Assembly: GCA_024641305.1 (NCBI GenBank)
Contig: JAHEDI010000028.1
Coordinates: 1-43,825, forward strand
Direction: 5' to 3'
DNA length: 43,825 nt
Origin: a bacterium
GTDB lineage: Bacteria; Actinomycetota; Acidimicrobiia; Spongiisociales; JAENVV01
Shown here: positions 13,671 through 32,057 of the stretch, one piece after another
How the letters are laid out: every line of letters starts with the position of its first letter
Position numbering within the stretch: the first letter of the stretch is position 1
Made by a program: the position numbers and the translations under genes
Notes under the pieces: generated by a model
Databases searched by the model: none
Told to the model about the DNA's origin: nothing
What the model saw: the letters and a program-made list of their open reading frames with translations, nothing else

Positions 13671-14102
13671 TTCGGGAACCGCTGCCACGATTCGCAGTTC
13701 CAGGACGAGGCGAGGATCGGTCGCCAAACGGACCACCTCAACCGTGGTACTGGCCGGTCGATGATCCCCGAATGCCTGCCCGAGAACCCGGTTGATGGCG
13801 TCCTGATTGTCGGCGATGTCGACGATGTAGCGGGTCATCTCAACAACGTGTTCGAGTCCACCACCGGCGGCGACCAATACCTGACGGATTGCTTCGATGG
13901 CCATGAGTGCCTGGTCGCCGGGATCGAGTGGGATGTCGTCGAATTCGGCGGCGATATGGGGATGGCTGTGATAAACCGGAGCAGCGGTAATCCCGGCGAG
14001 AAACACCATTTTGCCCGAGTGGACCTTGACTGCTGGTGTGTACGGCATGTTGAACCGCGGCTCGTTCTCACCGGTGTGGATCATTTCGAACGGTTGTTCC
14101 AT
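13668..14102 (-). CDS. RidA/YjgF-family protein lacking the usual catalytic arginine
   Basis: 144 residues with the YjgF trimer fold: VHSGKMVFLAGITA near the start, QVLVAAGGGLEHVVEMTRYIVDI in the middle and RPASTTVEVVRL toward the end. RidA deaminases of enamine/imine intermediates have PARSxVEV with a key Arg; here the aligned sequence is PASTTVEV, so that Arg is absent. This places it among the other Rid subgroups, which are often found in catabolic loci of nitrogen compounds. The ATG at 14102 has AGGAAGG upstream. It follows the LacI gene by 13 bp and is likely co-transcribed with it. Confidence 0.8.
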   Translation of the reverse strand: MEQPFEMIHTGENEPRFNMPYTPAVKVHSGKMVFLAGITAAPVYHSHPHIAAEFDDIPLDPGDQALMAIEAIRQVLVAAGGGLEHVVEMTRYIVDIADNQDAINRVLGQAFGDHRPASTTVEVVRLATDPRLVLELRIVAAVPE

Positions 14103-14115
14103 TGCTAGACCTTCC

Positions 14116-15150
14116 TTACTCAAGTGCTCTGGTGGATTCTCTGGCAACGAGTTGCGGGGTGAGCGTATGGCCTTCTACCTGTTCGCCTCCGAGCAGTCGC
14201 AGGATCATCTCGCCGGCGAGGCGTCCCACGTCCATGCCGGGATATTTGACCGTCGTGAGTGAGGGGGTTACGTGGCCGACCATCGGAAGGTCGTTGTAAC
14301 CAACCAGCGAAACATCGTCGGGGACTCGTACGCAATCCTGGCGCAGACGTGACAGTGCGCCGAGTGCCATAAGGTCGTTGTGAGCAAAGATGGCGGTGGG
14401 CATGCCAGCTGCCAGGTTGATCAGGGCGTCCATGATTCGCCGGCCTTCGGCGATAACGGGCACGGTGGCAGTTTCCGGAACGAGCACCTGCTCAAGTCCT
14501 CGTTCACGGCAGGCGTCCGAGAAGCCCTGATCTCGTCGGGGGAAGTTGGCCACATCGACGGGACCGCGGAGTTGGGCGACCGTGCGATGACCCAGGTCGG
14601 CGAAGTGCTCGGCGATCAGGCGCCCGCCGGCGTGTTCATCGACAACCACTTCGGGAAGTGTGGTCCCTTCGAGCGGGCGACCGGCCACGACGATCGGGAG
14701 AATTCGGCCGGCTGCCTCGAGAATATCCCGGTCTGCTGATCTGGCACTCATGACCACCATGGCGTCGACCCGCCTGCTCAACATGTGGTCGAGGATGTTG
14801 GCAAAGCGATCGCTATTGTCTTCTGTCTCGGCAATCATCGGCATCATGCCGGCTGCCTCAACCGCGGCGGTCAGGCCGTGGATCACCGGTGTGATGAACG
14901 TGTTGCCGAGGTCGGCGACAATGACTCCGACCGTGGCGGTGCGTCCGCTTTTCAGACCCCGAGCCACCATGTCGGGCCGGTATCCGAGCCGGTCGGCGAC
15001 TGCTTCGATGTGTTGGCGGGTGGCTTCTTTCACCCGTGCGTGGTGCGCTGGATCGAGTGCCCGGGACACGGTTGAGACGTGAACCCCGGCCTCCCTGGCG
15101 ACGTCGAGCAGGGTCACGCTGCCCGCGTTGAGGTTTTGTCTCTTGCTCAT
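14116..15150 (-). CDS. LacI-family transcription regulator
   Basis: 344 residues. The N-terminal HTH reads VTLLDVAREAGVHVSTVSRAL and the hinge region RLGYRPDMVARGLKSGRT, followed by a periplasmic-binding-protein-like effector domain (VGVIVADLGNTF onward). It should bind CG-centred palindromes like those at 5048 and 12860 and release them upon binding a small molecule. ATG 15150 is used because the HTH starts 12 residues later and the length fits; upstream in-frame codons would add a non-homologous extension. Divergent from the amidohydrolase. Confidence 0.92.
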   Translation of the reverse strand: MSKRQNLNAGSVTLLDVAREAGVHVSTVSRALDPAHHARVKEATRQHIEAVADRLGYRPDMVARGLKSGRTATVGVIVADLGNTFITPVIHGLTAAVEAAGMMPMIAETEDNSDRFANILDHMLSRRVDAMVVMSARSADRDILEAAGRILPIVVAGRPLEGTTLPEVVVDEHAGGRLIAEHFADLGHRTVAQLRGPVDVANFPRRDQGFSDACRERGLEQVLVPETATVPVIAEGRRIMDALINLAAGMPTAIFAHNDLMALGALSRLRQDCVRVPDDVSLVGYNDLPMVGHVTPSLTTVKYPGMDVGRLAGEMILRLLGGEQVEGHTLTPQLVARESTRALE

Positions 15151-15186
15151 GTGTCCATCATCTGTTTGCTTCGTCTCGACCCGGGC

Positions 15187-15227
15187 GGAGTCGTAGGAAA
15201 TCCCGACTCCCGCATGAACCCTACGAC
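15187..15227. promoter_or_regulatory. Overlapping inverted repeats between LacI and amidohydrolase genes
   Basis: GGAGTCG (15187-15193) pairs with CGACTCC (15204-15210), and GTCGTAGG (15190-15197) pairs with CCTACGAC (15220-15227). The two pairings exclude each other. The site could be an operator or alternative RNA structure; no TGCAAACG-type LacI box is seen here. Confidence 0.35.
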
Positions 15228-15339
15228 TATTGGCGGTTCCCTGACGGGCGGATAATAGGATGCGGAACCAGCGTGCCTCAACTGATGGCGTACGGTGAGG
15301 GTGACACAAGGGCAGATCCGGCGAGAGAAGGAACAATCC

Positions 15340-16944
15340 ATGATGGCTGAGCACGGCGATCGACTACTCGTAAACGGGCGGATTTGGACGGGTGACGAAC
15401 ATGTCGAGGCGCTGGCCATTCGAGACGGAAAGATCCTGGCCACCGGGTCCGGTGAGGCGGTTCGAGAGATTGCCGACCGGGGCGCAGACATCCTGGATCT
15501 CGACGGGCGGCGGGCCATTCCTGGTCTTATCGATTCACACATTCACTTTTTGCGTGGTGGACAGACCTGGAATGACATCGTCCGGTGGGATGGGGTCCCT
15601 AGTTTGGAGGAGGGGCTCGGGCGTATTGCGGCCGCCGCGTCTTCGACTTCACCGGGCACCTGGCTGCGGGTCCTGGGCAGCTGGCATCCCGGGCAGTTCT
15701 CCGAGGGCCGCGGACCCACGCAAGCCGAACTCGACCGGGCCGCTCCCGATCACCCGGTCTACGTCCAGTTGCTCTACGAATGGGCAATTCTCAACTCGAG
15801 GGCCGCCAACCTGGCCCTTGGAGAGTCCGACCCGCCCGGCGGTTCAATCGAACGCGATGCGACCGGCGCTCCGACCGGTTTTATCCGCGGGCCGGGTGCC
15901 TTTGGCATGGTTCTCGGACAGATCCCACCTCCCACCCGGGCGGCCCAGGTGGCCTCGACGAAGGCTTTCATGGCTGATCTCAATGCGACCGGTATTACCG
16001 GCGTGATCGACCCGGGGGGCTTCGGCGTGATCCCCGAGTCGTACGGAGCGCTCTTTGACACCTGGAGGGCCGAAGAGATGACGTTACGGGTTGGCCTGTA
16101 TGTCGTTCCAGGCGGGCGCGGGACCGAGGTCGAAGACTTGCGCCAATGGGTCCGATACGTTCAGCCCGGCTTTGGAGACGACATGCTCCGATATGTCGGT
16201 GCAGGCGAGATCCTTACCTTCGGCTGCCACGACCTTGAAGGGGTCAGGCCGTTCGAGGTATCGAAGGAGGCCAAAGCCGATCTCACCGAGATCACCCGTA
16301 TGTTGTCCCTGGCCGGGTGGCCGATCCATATGCATGCGGTCCTCGACCCGACCATTGGAGCTGTTCTGGATGTGTTTGAGGAGGTTGCCGCCGACATTGG
16401 CCTCCGGGGTCGGATATCGCTGGCGCATGCCGAACCGATCGGGCGCCGCAACCTGGAACGGGTCAAGGCGTTGGGGATCGGAATTGCGATCCAGGATCGG
16501 ATGATCATGCGGTCAGCTGACTCGGCCGCTTTCTGGGGGTCAGAGGTCGCCATCGACTCGCCACCTCTCCGCGACATCCTCGACTTGGGAATCCCGTTGG
16601 GTGCCGGTACGGATGGGACGGTGGTTGCTTCCCATGATCCCTGGCAGTGCATCCACTGGCTCGTGACCGGCCAGTCGGTCGATGGCGCCCCGCCCCGTTC
16701 GGAACGGCATCAGTTGACCATCGAAGAAGCGCTGGCCGCCTACACGTCCGGGAGCGCCTGGTTCTCGCTCGACGAACATAAGCGGGGTGCGCTTCGTGCT
16801 GGCATGCTTGCCGACATAGCGGTTCTGTCCGACGATGTCTTTTCTATAGACCCTGATTCACTTATCAGTGTTCGGTCGGACCTAACGATGGTCGGTGGTG
16901 TCGCTGTCCATGCTGCTGGACCTTTTTCGGGGACCATGGCCTGA
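15340..16944 (+). CDS. Amidohydrolase family 3 protein (YtcJ-like)
   Basis: 534 residues. The N-terminal beta domain (LLVNGRIWTGDEHVEALAI, GRRAIPGLIDSHIHF) is followed by a TIM barrel with metal-binding HxH in DSHIHF, a His in WPIHMHAV, SLAHAEP and GAGTDGT with the catalytic Asp. These are the usual Amidohydro_3 positions. Family members hydrolyse N-acyl or cyclic amide bonds. ATG 15340 has AGAAGGAA 6 nt upstream. It is divergent from the LacI gene, so it is probably part of the same catabolic locus; substrate unknown. Confidence 0.88.
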   Translation: MMAEHGDRLLVNGRIWTGDEHVEALAIRDGKILATGSGEAVREIADRGADILDLDGRRAIPGLIDSHIHFLRGGQTWNDIVRWDGVPSLEEGLGRIAAAASSTSPGTWLRVLGSWHPGQFSEGRGPTQAELDRAAPDHPVYVQLLYEWAILNSRAANLALGESDPPGGSIERDATGAPTGFIRGPGAFGMVLGQIPPPTRAAQVASTKAFMADLNATGITGVIDPGGFGVIPESYGALFDTWRAEEMTLRVGLYVVPGGRGTEVEDLRQWVRYVQPGFGDDMLRYVGAGEILTFGCHDLEGVRPFEVSKEAKADLTEITRMLSLAGWPIHMHAVLDPTIGAVLDVFEEVAADIGLRGRISLAHAEPIGRRNLERVKALGIGIAIQDRMIMRSADSAAFWGSEVAIDSPPLRDILDLGIPLGAGTDGTVVASHDPWQCIHWLVTGQSVDGAPPRSERHQLTIEEALAAYTSGSAWFSLDEHKRGALRAGMLADIAVLSDDVFSIDPDSLISVRSDLTMVGGVAVHAAGPFSGTMA

Positions 16945-26876: not shown

Positions 26877-28145
26877 TCATGCGGAGGTCGTGCCGACCGC
26901 GGCGGTTTCGGTGGACTCGGCTGTCAGGTCGATCATGTCTGGCAGGTTGAGGTACTTCGCCAGTGTTGTGATCATTGCCTCGATCTCCGCCGACGAATGG
27001 CTGGCGGTCACCGTGAAGCGCAGGCCCCCCTCTCGCAACGGTACGGCGGGGTATCCCGCCGCGTTCAGAAAAAACCCGTTGGTCATCATGACCTTGGTCA
27101 TCCGAATGACGTTGTCTGGGCTTCCAACCCGCACGAAGGTAATCGGAGTTCTGTCAAGTGATGGCACGGGAAGGCCGTGCTCTACAACCAGACGGTTGAC
27201 GAGATCGATGCGCTCATAGAGCAAGGTTTGACGTTCGGCATGCTCCGGGCTGAGATGAAGGTCGGCTGATCGGACTGCAGCTCCGAGGACTGCAGGGTGG
27301 ATTGGCCCGCCAAAGGTCAGCGTTCCACCCATCAGGATGATAGTTCTGGCCAAAGCGGGATCACCGACGGCTAGCGCGGCTCCACCGGCACCGAATGACT
27401 TCGATAGCGAAACGGCCACGATCATGCGATCACTCAGCTTGGTGTTCTCAAGGACGTAGCCAACTCCGTTTGGTCCAGCCCATCCAAAGCCATGGGCGTC
27501 GTCGTAATAGACGAACAGGTTCTCGAACTCGTCCATCAGGCGGTCGATCTCACCGACCGGAGCGACGTCGCCGAACATCGAATAGACGCCATCGAGCAGA
27601 TACCAGACCTTCTCGTAGTCCGGTGCCATTTTGGTCAGCGTCGCCCGAAGGCCTGTCATGTCGCTGTGCCTGACGACTTTCACCTGAATGCCCTGTCCCC
27701 GCAGGACGTCGGCAGCCAGATGGAGTGAGGCGTGTGCACGAATGTCGATAACCACAAGATCGTCTCGGGAAACCAGCACGGGGAGGGCGGCCAGATGAGC
27801 CAGGGTGGTAGTTGGCGCAGGAATGACGGTATGCCCACCGAACATCTCCATGAGGCGGGTTTCGAGGTGGGTGTATAGATCAATGGATGCGTAGGCGACC
27901 GACGAGGAGTAGCTCGGCCCGAAACGGTTGACCGCGTTCGAAGCGGCCTCTTTGAGGCGATCATCCTGCCCGAGTCCGAGATATGAGCACGACCCGAAAT
28001 TGACGAGGTCTCGACCATTGACCCTGATGTTGGTTCCACTCAACTCGTCATCGGTGATACGCACCCGAATGACGCCGGCGTCGACGCCGGCTTGCATGGT
28101 GGCCTGAATCATGGCCAATAGCTTTGTCTCCCGATCGCCACCCAC
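26877..28145 (-). CDS. Alpha-oxoamine synthase family PLP enzyme
   Basis: 422 residues, fold type I PLP enzyme related to 8-amino-7-oxononanoate synthase, serine palmitoyltransferase and CqsA/LqsA. VNFGSCSYLGLG opens the catalytic domain, AHASLHLAADV contains the ring-stacking His, VYYDDAHGFGWAGPNG the Asp and His of the cofactor site, and SLSKSFGAGG the PLP-binding K249. The GTG at 28145 is chosen since AAAGGAG lies 8 nt upstream. Such enzymes condense an acyl thioester with an amino acid. No biotin or sphingolipid genes are close; the neighbour downstream is a histidine kinase, which makes a signal-synthase role worth testing. Confidence 0.85.
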   Translation of the reverse strand: MGGDRETKLLAMIQATMQAGVDAGVIRVRITDDELSGTNIRVNGRDLVNFGSCSYLGLGQDDRLKEAASNAVNRFGPSYSSSVAYASIDLYTHLETRLMEMFGGHTVIPAPTTTLAHLAALPVLVSRDDLVVIDIRAHASLHLAADVLRGQGIQVKVVRHSDMTGLRATLTKMAPDYEKVWYLLDGVYSMFGDVAPVGEIDRLMDEFENLFVYYDDAHGFGWAGPNGVGYVLENTKLSDRMIVAVSLSKSFGAGGAALAVGDPALARTIILMGGTLTFGGPIHPAVLGAAVRSADLHLSPEHAERQTLLYERIDLVNRLVVEHGLPVPSLDRTPITFVRVGSPDNVIRMTKVMMTNGFFLNAAGYPAVPLREGGLRFTVTASHSSAEIEAMITTLAKYLNLPDMIDLTAESTETAAVGTTSA

Positions 28146-28200
28146 CCGATTCGCTCCTTTGTCGCAATTTGTCAGATTTTGTCCGCAAACGATAGTGGTT

Positions 28201-28254
28201 GCAGAGTTGTTCTGCGAGGCAATCGATCGGCCGATCGTGATCGGCACTGCCGAT
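28201..28254 (-). promoter_or_regulatory. Three consecutive inverted repeats before the synthase-kinase operon
   Basis: GCAGA/TCTGC (28201-28215), the perfect palindrome CGATCGGCCGATCG (28224-28237) and ATCGGCA/TGCCGAT (28240-28254) lie between the pirin stop and the synthase start. They may be operators of the synthase or a terminator of pirin; no U-tract is present. Confidence 0.45.
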
Positions 28255-28264
28255 GGTGAGCCGG

Positions 28265-29209
28265 TTATCGGTCGTTCGGTGAGATCCAGGGAGGAGGCGG
28301 TGCCTCGATCCGGGTCAGGCTGGAATTGACCGATCCGAAGCGATCGGTATTGTCATCTTGCCAGTCCTGCCAGGCTTGGGTGAGTTCGTCTCGGGTCCGG
28401 GCCACAAAGTTCCACCACATCTGGATGCGCTCGCCGAGTGGGGCCCCACCGAGAAGCATGATCCGGCCGCCGCCCGATCCGACCTCGATCGAAAGGGATT
28501 CTGCACCGAGCGGCACCATGCCGAGCCAACCCGGTTCGACGACGGCTTCCCCAACTTTGACGGATGCATCGATGGGGACGATGGCGTACTCAAATCGGCG
28601 GTCGGCCGGGATGACGGTACAGCCCGACCGCATCTTCAACTCGGTGCCGACCAATTCAGAATCGACCACGGCGGTCGAACTCACCGATCCGAGCGCGCCG
28701 AGGATGACGGTTGCCTCGGTGTTTCCGATGGTGAGGGTCGGCAACTCGTTGTGGTGCTCGAAGCGCGATTCGCCATGGCGGGTCGACTCAGGTTGGGCGA
28801 GCCACATCTGGAATCCGCGCCCAGCCGGGGTCACCCCGAGTTCGGCGTGGGCAATGCCGCGTCCGGCGGTCATGAGATTCAGCTGACCTGGTTTGATCAG
28901 CTGTTGGGTACCAAGCGAGTCTCCGTGCAAAGCCTCTCCTTCAAAAAGCCAGGTGACCGTGGCGAGGCCGGTGTGTGGGTGAGGGCCGACCTCCATGGGC
29001 TTGGGTTCTGAGAACTCGTCGGGGCGGAAGCAGTCCACAAAACACCACGGTCCGACAGTGCGCCGGCCCTTCGTGGGAAGCACCCGGATGACTCCCATCC
29101 CACCAACGGATGCCTGCCGCCCCTGGGTGACCTCGACGCGGCTGGGCACGCCGTCGAGCGATTGGCCCCTGGGAGTTGTCACGGTCTGGTCGTGTTGGGA
29201 TTGCTCCAT
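28265..29209 (-). CDS. Pirin family protein
   Basis: 314 residues, bicupin of the pirin family. PHPHTGLATVTWLFEGE with the metal-binding His pair, GRGIAHAE with the third His and Glu, and FQMWLAQP are the family signatures. The C-terminal cupin ends with LLGGAPLGERIQMWWNFVARTRDEL. Bacterial pirins may have quercetinase or regulatory roles. The ATG at 29209 has a leaderless -10 TAGACT. Confidence 0.9.
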   Translation of the reverse strand: MEQSQHDQTVTTPRGQSLDGVPSRVEVTQGRQASVGGMGVIRVLPTKGRRTVGPWCFVDCFRPDEFSEPKPMEVGPHPHTGLATVTWLFEGEALHGDSLGTQQLIKPGQLNLMTAGRGIAHAELGVTPAGRGFQMWLAQPESTRHGESRFEHHNELPTLTIGNTEATVILGALGSVSSTAVVDSELVGTELKMRSGCTVIPADRRFEYAIVPIDASVKVGEAVVEPGWLGMVPLGAESLSIEVGSGGGRIMLLGGAPLGERIQMWWNFVARTRDELTQAWQDWQDDNTDRFGSVNSSLTRIEAPPPPWISPNDR

Positions 29210-30354: not shown

Positions 30355-30403
30355 CTGTCTACCTCCACGCGCGGGCTACCTATCGTCCCAGGGACGCTCA
30401 TTA

Positions 30404-30463
30404 AGGTACACCGTGGTTGGTATCACGTAAAGAGCCAGAACCGTCGGTGTGGCAGGTACCAGG
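30404..30463 (-). promoter_or_regulatory. MocR-type promoter/operator of ald
   Basis: On the minus strand, direct repeats CTGGTACCTGCC (30463-30452) and CTGGCTCTTTAC (30439-30428) begin 24 bp apart. The second overlaps a -35 TTTACG, and -10 TACCTT (30409-30404) lies 17 bp further. The arrangement equals that at 31998-32057, base spacing included. Confidence 0.75.
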
Positions 30464-30470
30464 GCGGGGC

Positions 30471-31937
30471 TTATCGGAGTCGATCGATCACGCGGGCGAT
30501 GATCGCCAGTCCTGGCTCGATGGCCCCGAGTGGAGTTGATGCATATCCCAGCTTGAAATGATTGCGCGGGATCGGCGGGGTAACGAAGCACGGTCCGCCG
30601 GCTTCGACGACCACCCCTTCTTCGATGGCCAGTTCCGCCATCGTGGTGGCGTCGAAGTCGGCTGGTCCGCCGACCCAGATCGAGAGGCCTCCGGTCGGGA
30701 TCGGGACGGGCCACGGTATATGCTTTTCCACCGCCTCTGACATGGCGATCCACTTCTCCTTGTACACGTTGCGGATTCGTCGGACCGAGCGGTTGTAGTC
30801 ACCACTTTGGATGAACAGGGCCAGGGCCCGCTGGAGAATGCCAGGCGGATGACGAAGTTGATAGCGGCGCAGGTCTCTTAAGTGTTCAATGAGAGTGGGT
30901 TCCGCAACCACAAATCCCAGGCGGAGTCCGGGAGCGAGAAACTTGGAGAAGCTACCCAGGTAGATCACCCGCCCGGAGTTCTCGATGCTTTTCATGGCTG
31001 GTGTCGATTGGCCCAGATATCGGAACTCTGAGTCATAGTCATCCTCGACAATGACGAAATCATCTCTCGACGCCTGGTTCAGCAAGGCGTGGCGACGCCC
31101 GATCGACAAGGTCGTATTGGTGGGGTATTGATGCGATGGCGTGACGAACACGAGGTCGACCTTGGAGAGATCGGACGGAATCACCGCACCCTGCTCATCG
31201 ACCGGCAAGGCCTGAATGCTTGCCCCACGCGAGCGAAACATATGACGGGCGTCGGGGTAGCCAGGTTCTTCAATAGCCACCGTTGATTCGCCGTTCAGCA
31301 ATGCTGTGGCCACCAGACCGAGACCGTGCTGAGAGCCGAGTGTTATGAGAATTTCCTCGGGTTGGGCAGTGATCCCTCTCGCCCGCAGGATGTGACGGCG
31401 CAGCATCTCGACGAGGAGCGCATCGTCTCGATCTACGAGATCATGGAGGCTTGTTCCGGCGTGTTCCTCCGTCAATGCCAGGCGCATGGCCCTTCCCCAG
31501 GACTTGGTGGGGAACATAGCCGTCTCGATCTGCCCGGCAATGAACGGGTACGGATATGAAGACCAACCGGCTGGCTTCCACACATGACCTTCGTCGCTTG
31601 GTGGGGTCGAGAATCGACTCTGCCATTCCAGGTGCTCGACTCTTGGACGAGGGGTGTCATCGAGGTGGGCTTGGAATTCAGGGTTGACCATATGTCCGAT
31701 ACGAGCCACCGAGGTGATGTACCCGTCGGACATGAGGTATTGCAGAGCCAGATTGACCGTGTTCCTGGACAGGCCGAGGTCCGTTGCCAGGGTCCGCGAC
31801 GATGGCAGCAACTCGGTGGTGTCGAATTGACCTTGTTCGATCGCTTCGATCAACGCCTTGGAAAGCTGCTTATACAGTGGCTCCCGAGAGTGGGGATCGA
31901 GACCGATCGGGACCTGGCTAATCGGTTTTCGACTCAT
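30471..31937 (-). CDS. MocR/GabR-family regulator (GntR HTH plus aminotransferase-like domain)
   Basis: 488 residues. The N-terminal GntR winged helix contains LYKQLSKALIEAIEQG and LPSSRTLATDLGLSRNTV. The remainder is a fold-type I aminotransferase domain with EDDYDSEF and GSFSKFLAPGLRLGF, where the Lys binds PLP. Known relatives (GabR, TauR, PdxR) bind direct repeats and sense PLP with an amine or amino acid. ATG 31937 has GGAGGAGGC upstream; the longer open frame covers the operator. It is divergent from the aminotransferase gene and presumably controls both that gene and ald. Confidence 0.9.
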   Translation of the reverse strand: MSRKPISQVPIGLDPHSREPLYKQLSKALIEAIEQGQFDTTELLPSSRTLATDLGLSRNTVNLALQYLMSDGYITSVARIGHMVNPEFQAHLDDTPRPRVEHLEWQSRFSTPPSDEGHVWKPAGWSSYPYPFIAGQIETAMFPTKSWGRAMRLALTEEHAGTSLHDLVDRDDALLVEMLRRHILRARGITAQPEEILITLGSQHGLGLVATALLNGESTVAIEEPGYPDARHMFRSRGASIQALPVDEQGAVIPSDLSKVDLVFVTPSHQYPTNTTLSIGRRHALLNQASRDDFVIVEDDYDSEFRYLGQSTPAMKSIENSGRVIYLGSFSKFLAPGLRLGFVVAEPTLIEHLRDLRRYQLRHPPGILQRALALFIQSGDYNRSVRRIRNVYKEKWIAMSEAVEKHIPWPVPIPTGGLSIWVGGPADFDATTMAELAIEEGVVVEAGGPCFVTPPIPRNHFKLGYASTPLGAIEPGLAIIARVIDRLR

Positions 31938-31997
31938 GCCTCCTCCAATCCCGACCGTCCAGGCACCTTCCCTGGAGAATTGGTCGCTCAATCCAAC

Positions 31998-32057
31998 TTG
32001 GTACTGCCCAACGGGGCGATTCTGGCACTTTACCTGGGTCCAACCGACAGGTATCGT
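31998..32057 (+). promoter_or_regulatory. MocR-type promoter/operator of the aminotransferase gene
   Basis: Direct repeats TTGGTACTGCCC (31998-32009) and CTGGCACTTTAC (32022-32033) start 24 bp apart; the second overlaps a -35 TTTACC, and -10 TATCGT (32052-32057) follows after 17 bp. The flanking CCAACC is also shared with the ald promoter. Confidence 0.78.

Follow-up and report, generated by a model that had tools for sequence, protein, structure and literature searches.

A putative TauR-type regulator with one three-box operator at an aminotransferase gene and at ald in a genus of Acidimicrobiia

Does the MocR-type regulator encoded in this stretch of acidimicrobial DNA serve the genes on both sides of it and, if so, on which amine does the circuit work? 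The window, by which we mean the whole stretch analysed (43,825 nucleotides of contig JAHEDI010000028.1, assembly GCA_024641305.1), carries mocR between ald and a class III aminotransferase gene (Table 1). An earlier note on this DNA had described matching repeats at the two enzyme genes and had predicted that one regulator acts on both, as TauR does. The two sites were found where the note placed them, in separate intergenic regions on either side of mocR: the composite TGGTAC-N18-TGGC[AT]CTTTAC occurs at 30461-30417 (-) for ald and at 31999-32043 (+) for the aminotransferase gene. The claimed repeat spacing of 24 bp holds when counted from TGG to TGG; if the count from TGGTAC ends at the C of CTGGC instead, it is 23. 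The remaining measurements agree with the sequence, namely a -35 (TTTACC or TTTACG) within the second repeat, spacers of 17 bp and a -10 at 30 bp past CTGGC.

The CCAACC said to be common to the two spacers is present in both, and is moreover a third operator box in inverted orientation, GGGTCCAA (aminotransferase) and GATACCAA (ald) being inverted copies of the half-site TTGGWC. Each site thus comprises two direct boxes and one inverted box, the most frequent of the published MocR layouts (PMC5320631). The direct half-sites at both genes, [CT]TGGTAC and CTGGCWC, resemble the R. capsulatus TauR consensus CTGGACYTAA (PMC5320631). A scan of the region with the sigma-70 consensus found no promoter, and the -35 and -10 hexamers are weak at both genes.

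Table 1. Genes and putative regulatory elements of the mocR locus, in window coordinates.
Feature	Position	Strand	Remarks
ald, alanine dehydrogenase, 361 aa	29269..30354	-	TIGR00518, 487 bits (cut-off 392)
ald -10-like hexamer TACCTT	30403..30408	-	position kept in five genus genomes; weak consensus match
ald operator box 3, inverted half-site GATACCAA	30417..30424	-	kept in G002-G005
ald operator box 2 CTGGCTCTTTAC	30427..30438	-	overlaps -35-like TTTACG (30431-30426)
ald operator box 1 TGGTAC	30456..30461	-	TGG to TGG 24 bp
mocR/tauR-like regulator, 488 aa	30471..31937	-	GntR-type winged helix and class I aminotransferase-like domain
aminotransferase operator box 1 TGGTAC	31999..32004	+	
aminotransferase operator box 2 CTGGCACTTTAC	32022..32033	+	overlaps -35-like TTTACC (32029-32034); kept in three families of the order
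aminotransferase operator box 3, inverted half-site GGGTCCAA	32036..32043	+	
aminotransferase -10-like hexamer TATCGT	32052..32057	+	TACATT/TAGATT at almost the same place in relatives
class III aminotransferase, Tpa-like, 442 aa	32083..33411	+	PF00202; best NCBIfam model PRK06541

The pattern TGGTAC-N-CTGGCWCTTTAC has two exact matches in the 3.42 Mb assembly, one on each side of mocR, where base composition predicts about 0.0004, and no third copy was found in this genome with up to three mismatches over the downstream boxes. Within the window, two matches at up to three mismatches compare with 0.02 in dinucleotide shuffles. A matrix trained on the sites of other genera only places the two window sites at the top (53.1 and 30.4, the next best reaching 5.3). 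Orthologues of the regulator, sought in 395 genomes of the class, were found in all five genomes sampled from the genus and in another 19 of the order. All five genus genomes keep both operators, although the sequence between the boxes varies. Across the 24 mocR-bearing genomes the 45-base operator yields 18 matches with no more than three mismatches, distributed over 12 genomes (reversed control, 0), and every one of them lies at the aminotransferase, ald or pta-xsc genes of the mocR locus. The search for the composite motif that the note had proposed for the genome and its relatives therefore recovered two copies in the former and, in the latter, matches at the mocR locus only; its occurrence at many unrelated promoters, which the note had held would count against its reading, was not seen. 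Between them, the excess of exact genomic matches and the retention of both sites amid varying sequence reduce to a negligible level the probability that the two promoters are alike by chance, a reading for which no supporting point was found and which conservation already refutes.

The 12 genomes with no match all belong to one family, f7, in which the operator is degenerate. Since all that its promoters retain is the -35 portion of box 2, either the operator has diverged in this family or its xsc genes are outside the regulon; no strong matrix match was obtained upstream of the distant xsc genes of f7. Boxes 1 and 3 are degenerate at the f7 aminotransferase genes (loci L151-L161), where the start codon follows a -10-like hexamer by some 6-10 bases, suggesting that these transcripts are leaderless or nearly so. 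The spacing of the direct boxes is not peculiar to the window locus: in the upstream regions of 58 other MocR genes, 24 bp is the commonest TGG-TGG distance for pairs that have an inverted box downstream (14, against 0.8 in shuffles).

In most of the mocR-bearing relatives in the order, the aminotransferase gene and ald, separated by 0 to about 140 bases, form a single operon that diverges from mocR. Several of these operons stand behind the same operator and are followed by xsc or by pta-xsc; xsc comes next in genome G357, pta and xsc in G338. The operator occurs twice in G258, at aminotransferase-ald and, 7 kb away, at pta-xsc adjoining mocR. The genus of the window has ald on the other side of mocR from the aminotransferase gene, under an operator of its own. 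Identities to relatives fall in parallel for Ald, the aminotransferase and the regulator, which is consistent with a single inherited set that was rearranged. The idea that one MocR acts on transaminase and alanine dehydrogenase together thereby gains comparative support. A large gene for an FAD-dependent oxidoreductase, by eye similar to dimethylglycine or sarcosine dehydrogenases (13684-16158 in locus L143, 11465-13939 in L144), follows xsc in G357 and stands directly after the aminotransferase gene in G244, with no ald or xsc nearby.

No close second copy of ald exists in the genome, the next match being 33% identical. Downstream of ald and on the same strand lie a pirin gene and then a gene for an alpha-oxoamine synthase of the serine palmitoyltransferase/BioF-like kind (window 26877-29209, -), an order shared by three more genomes of the genus (L107, L108, L110) and by no other genus examined. 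The aminotransferase reaches 541 bits with PRK06541, below that model's cut-off of 574. Its orthologues, 56-66% identical, are located in aminotransferase-ald(-pta-xsc) operons, and its class III fold, its catalytic motifs and the encoding of these orthologues with ald and xsc/pta mark it as a candidate Tpa. Among 123 alignment columns invariant in 19 orthologues from outside the genus, only 10 vary in one or more members of the genus, and none of these lies in the catalytic motifs checked.

The regulator itself combines PF00392 (residues 21-83) with PF00155 (residues 152-468) and so possesses the N-terminal winged helix and the fold-type I aminotransferase-like domain of the MocR subfamily; the PLP lysine also typical of it lies in an SFSKF motif and is kept in all aligned orthologues. 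In a FastTree phylogeny of 77 MocRs, with no experimentally characterised TauR among them, the window group (support 0.99 by itself) forms a clade of 22 with ten plasmid MocRs, among them the tau-linked ones of Paracoccus and Caballeronia. The other 55 fall outside and no outsider enters; support for this key node is moderate (0.81). The closest named orthologues are about 47-50% identical. That of Streptomyces diacarni is encoded within 10 kb together with aminotransferase, ald and xsc genes, that of Paeniglutamicibacter sulfureus with aminotransferase and pta genes and that of Amycolatopsis with ald; xsc and pta were recognised by eye in these loci, the xsc calls being corroborated by 61-63% identity to loci that match TIGR03457. 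Among plasmid-encoded homologues the best reach 38-41% identity; where annotated or checked, their genes adjoin tauABC, xsc and pta in Paracoccus, Caballeronia, Limimaricola and Burkholderia, and TauE genes, with no Xsc, in Azospirillum (tauAB, SDR) and Novosphingobium (aldehyde dehydrogenase); no xsc was seen in the unannotated loci of Sinorhizobium (L198) and Paraburkholderia (L205). Promoters of the tau-linked plasmid loci bear CTGGACY-type direct repeats 22-23 bp apart, similar to the R. capsulatus consensus. The tree and these neighbourhoods group the regulator with MocRs encoded beside tau, xsc and pta genes and, with the operon shared by both enzyme genes beside mocR in relatives, support the TauR-like co-regulation that the note had proposed.

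Two of the named loci show further peculiarities. An alanine-racemase-like gene separates mocR from the aminotransferase gene in Paeniglutamicibacter (7627-8808 of L004), with no ald nearby. Amycolatopsis has two weaker operator copies (L005, 4728 and 7466, +). One precedes ald; the other precedes an amidohydrolase-like gene that has a sodium:solute symporter-like gene after it, and this locus may serve a different substrate. The position aligned with Arg386 of aspartate aminotransferase (NHF[R/K]LG) was considered as a guide to effector specificity and rejected, since it is K in the window and R, K or Q in xsc-bearing relatives and therefore does not discriminate effectors.

Neighbourhood, operator and tree together indicate that the regulator is best read as TauR-type, controlling Tpa and Ald. 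Its automatic name would be another, for the NCBIfam PdxR model (NF052282) gives 367 bits, above the cut-off of 320, in favour of a PdxR in charge of PLP synthesis, for which the sites described here would be secondary. The same model, however, passes its cut-off for five of six MocRs encoded beside tau, TauE or xsc genes (338-379 bits; loci L197, L199, L203, L204, L206 and L003, the five being those of two Paracoccus, Caballeronia, Novosphingobium and Streptomyces), while two Bacillales homologues reach 471 and 552 bits. Covering tau-linked MocRs as well, it does not separate the two kinds; the name PdxR is therefore uninformative here, and automatic assignments of it in this branch are unreliable. 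Nor does the operator, at up to three mismatches, occur in the genome anywhere other than at ald and the aminotransferase gene, with none at pdxST or pdxK as a PdxR would have. We regard a PdxR as very improbable.

The circuit we propose is probably as follows. The TauR-type regulator would bind the direct TGGNNC boxes, two in number with a spacing of 24 bp, and the inverted box in the -35/-10 spacer, with box 2 overlapping the -35, in front of both the aminotransferase gene and ald. PLP in its aminotransferase-like domain would capture an amine, most likely taurine, and this capture would rearrange the head-to-tail dimer on the direct repeats in such a way that the regulator helps RNA polymerase to use two weak promoters. 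The taurine:pyruvate-type transaminase would then pass the amino group to pyruvate, yielding alanine, and Ald would deaminate the alanine to ammonium and regenerated pyruvate. Activation upon binding of the amine to PLP appears the most likely mode on the grounds of site position and family precedent, TauR and GabR both having been described as activators (PMC6677901). Control mainly by repression, with the unliganded protein blocking both promoters until the amine lifts the block, would be compatible with taurine as the signal, and boxes 2 (over the -35) and 3 (in the spacer) do encroach on the core promoter of each gene; repressors of MocR type are known, EnuR being described as one (PMC8739950). 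Against this stand the precedents of TauR and GabR and hexamers too weak to score alone as promoters, and we consider repression rather unlikely.

If the TauR-type reading is correct, what happens to the carbon skeleton of the substrate? Xsc (TIGR03457), the standard next enzyme for taurine, is encoded in 15 of the 19 mocR-bearing genomes of the order outside the genus and is absent from all five within it (best match in the window's genome 317 bits, cut-off 676); this makes it uncertain what becomes of the aldehyde and, in turn, which substrate is used. A change in the active site of the aminotransferase was entertained as the cause of the loss of xsc and discarded, the catalytic motifs checked being intact. 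The three TauE paralogues of the genus were likewise considered as signs of a route through isethionate or sulfoacetate and set aside: none has an evident aldehyde reductase or dehydrogenase for a neighbour, and Isf/Saf-type genes are not evident next to them either.

The same regulator and its two targets may have stayed together in the genus while the substrate or inducer ceased to be taurine and became, for example, hypotaurine, beta-alanine or another omega-amine, with xsc lost as a result. The absence of Xsc in the genus, as against its frequency in the mocR-bearing relatives, fits such a change, as does the position of ald outside the aminotransferase operon and ahead of pirin and alpha-oxoamine synthase genes, unique among the genera examined. 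Class III transaminases, furthermore, often accept several omega-amines. The enzyme nevertheless retains the catalytic motifs checked and nearly all the columns invariant in xsc-linked orthologues, and the Azospirillum and Novosphingobium loci are tau-linked and Xsc-free, so that loss of xsc need not mean a change of substrate. A changed substrate is accordingly a credible but minority possibility. More broadly, we judge the chances evenly balanced that either the genus runs an Xsc-free route, in which TauR, Tpa and Ald would obtain nitrogen from taurine or from a similar sulfonated amine and a not-yet-recognised enzyme would remove the C2 sulfonate aldehyde, or the whole circuit has moved to a different amine.

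The putative TauR-type circuit belongs to a known kind, since TauR regulons have been reconstructed in Rhodococcus and Proteobacteria and the Rhodococcus set already includes tpa and ald, along with pta (PMC5320631). It shares with them a MocR-type regulator, direct CTGG-type half-sites and the predicted targets tpa and ald (as in Rhodococcus), and the xsc and pta targets of those regulons are matched in relatives of the window (PMC5320631). It differs in that the genus has no xsc, the aminotransferase gene and ald form separate units, each with its own operator, the half-sites are TGGTAC/TGGCAC rather than CTGGACYTAA, a third box is inverted, and, although TauR regulons often cover uptake, no tau transporter gene adjoins ald, mocR or the aminotransferase gene in the window. 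The loci of Azospirillum (MocR, tauAB, TauE, SDR, class III aminotransferase) and Novosphingobium (MocR, class III aminotransferase, aldehyde dehydrogenase, TauE) resemble it in having no Xsc alongside, but have beside the transaminase a candidate reductase or dehydrogenase and an exporter, none of which was found at the window locus. In GabR/gabTD of Bacillus subtilis, too, a MocR with a PLP domain activates an aminotransferase gene through repeats near the promoter, as would the window regulator; the transaminase and its partner are different there, GabR controlling succinic semialdehyde dehydrogenase and not ald. With PdxR regulons there is a common MocR subfamily and the NCBIfam assignment, whereas the window operator is at no other genes of the genome, and neighbours and tree point to taurine genes. 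A literature search on taurine metabolism in Acidimicrobiia returned nothing on this circuit.

The locus would thus extend the TauR-type taurine regulon to a new lineage, within which the highly specific operator offers a handle for finding genes of taurine use. It also illustrates that proteins annotated as 'PdxR' can include taurine regulators. A genus without Xsc, finally, poses the concrete question of what becomes of the aldehyde.
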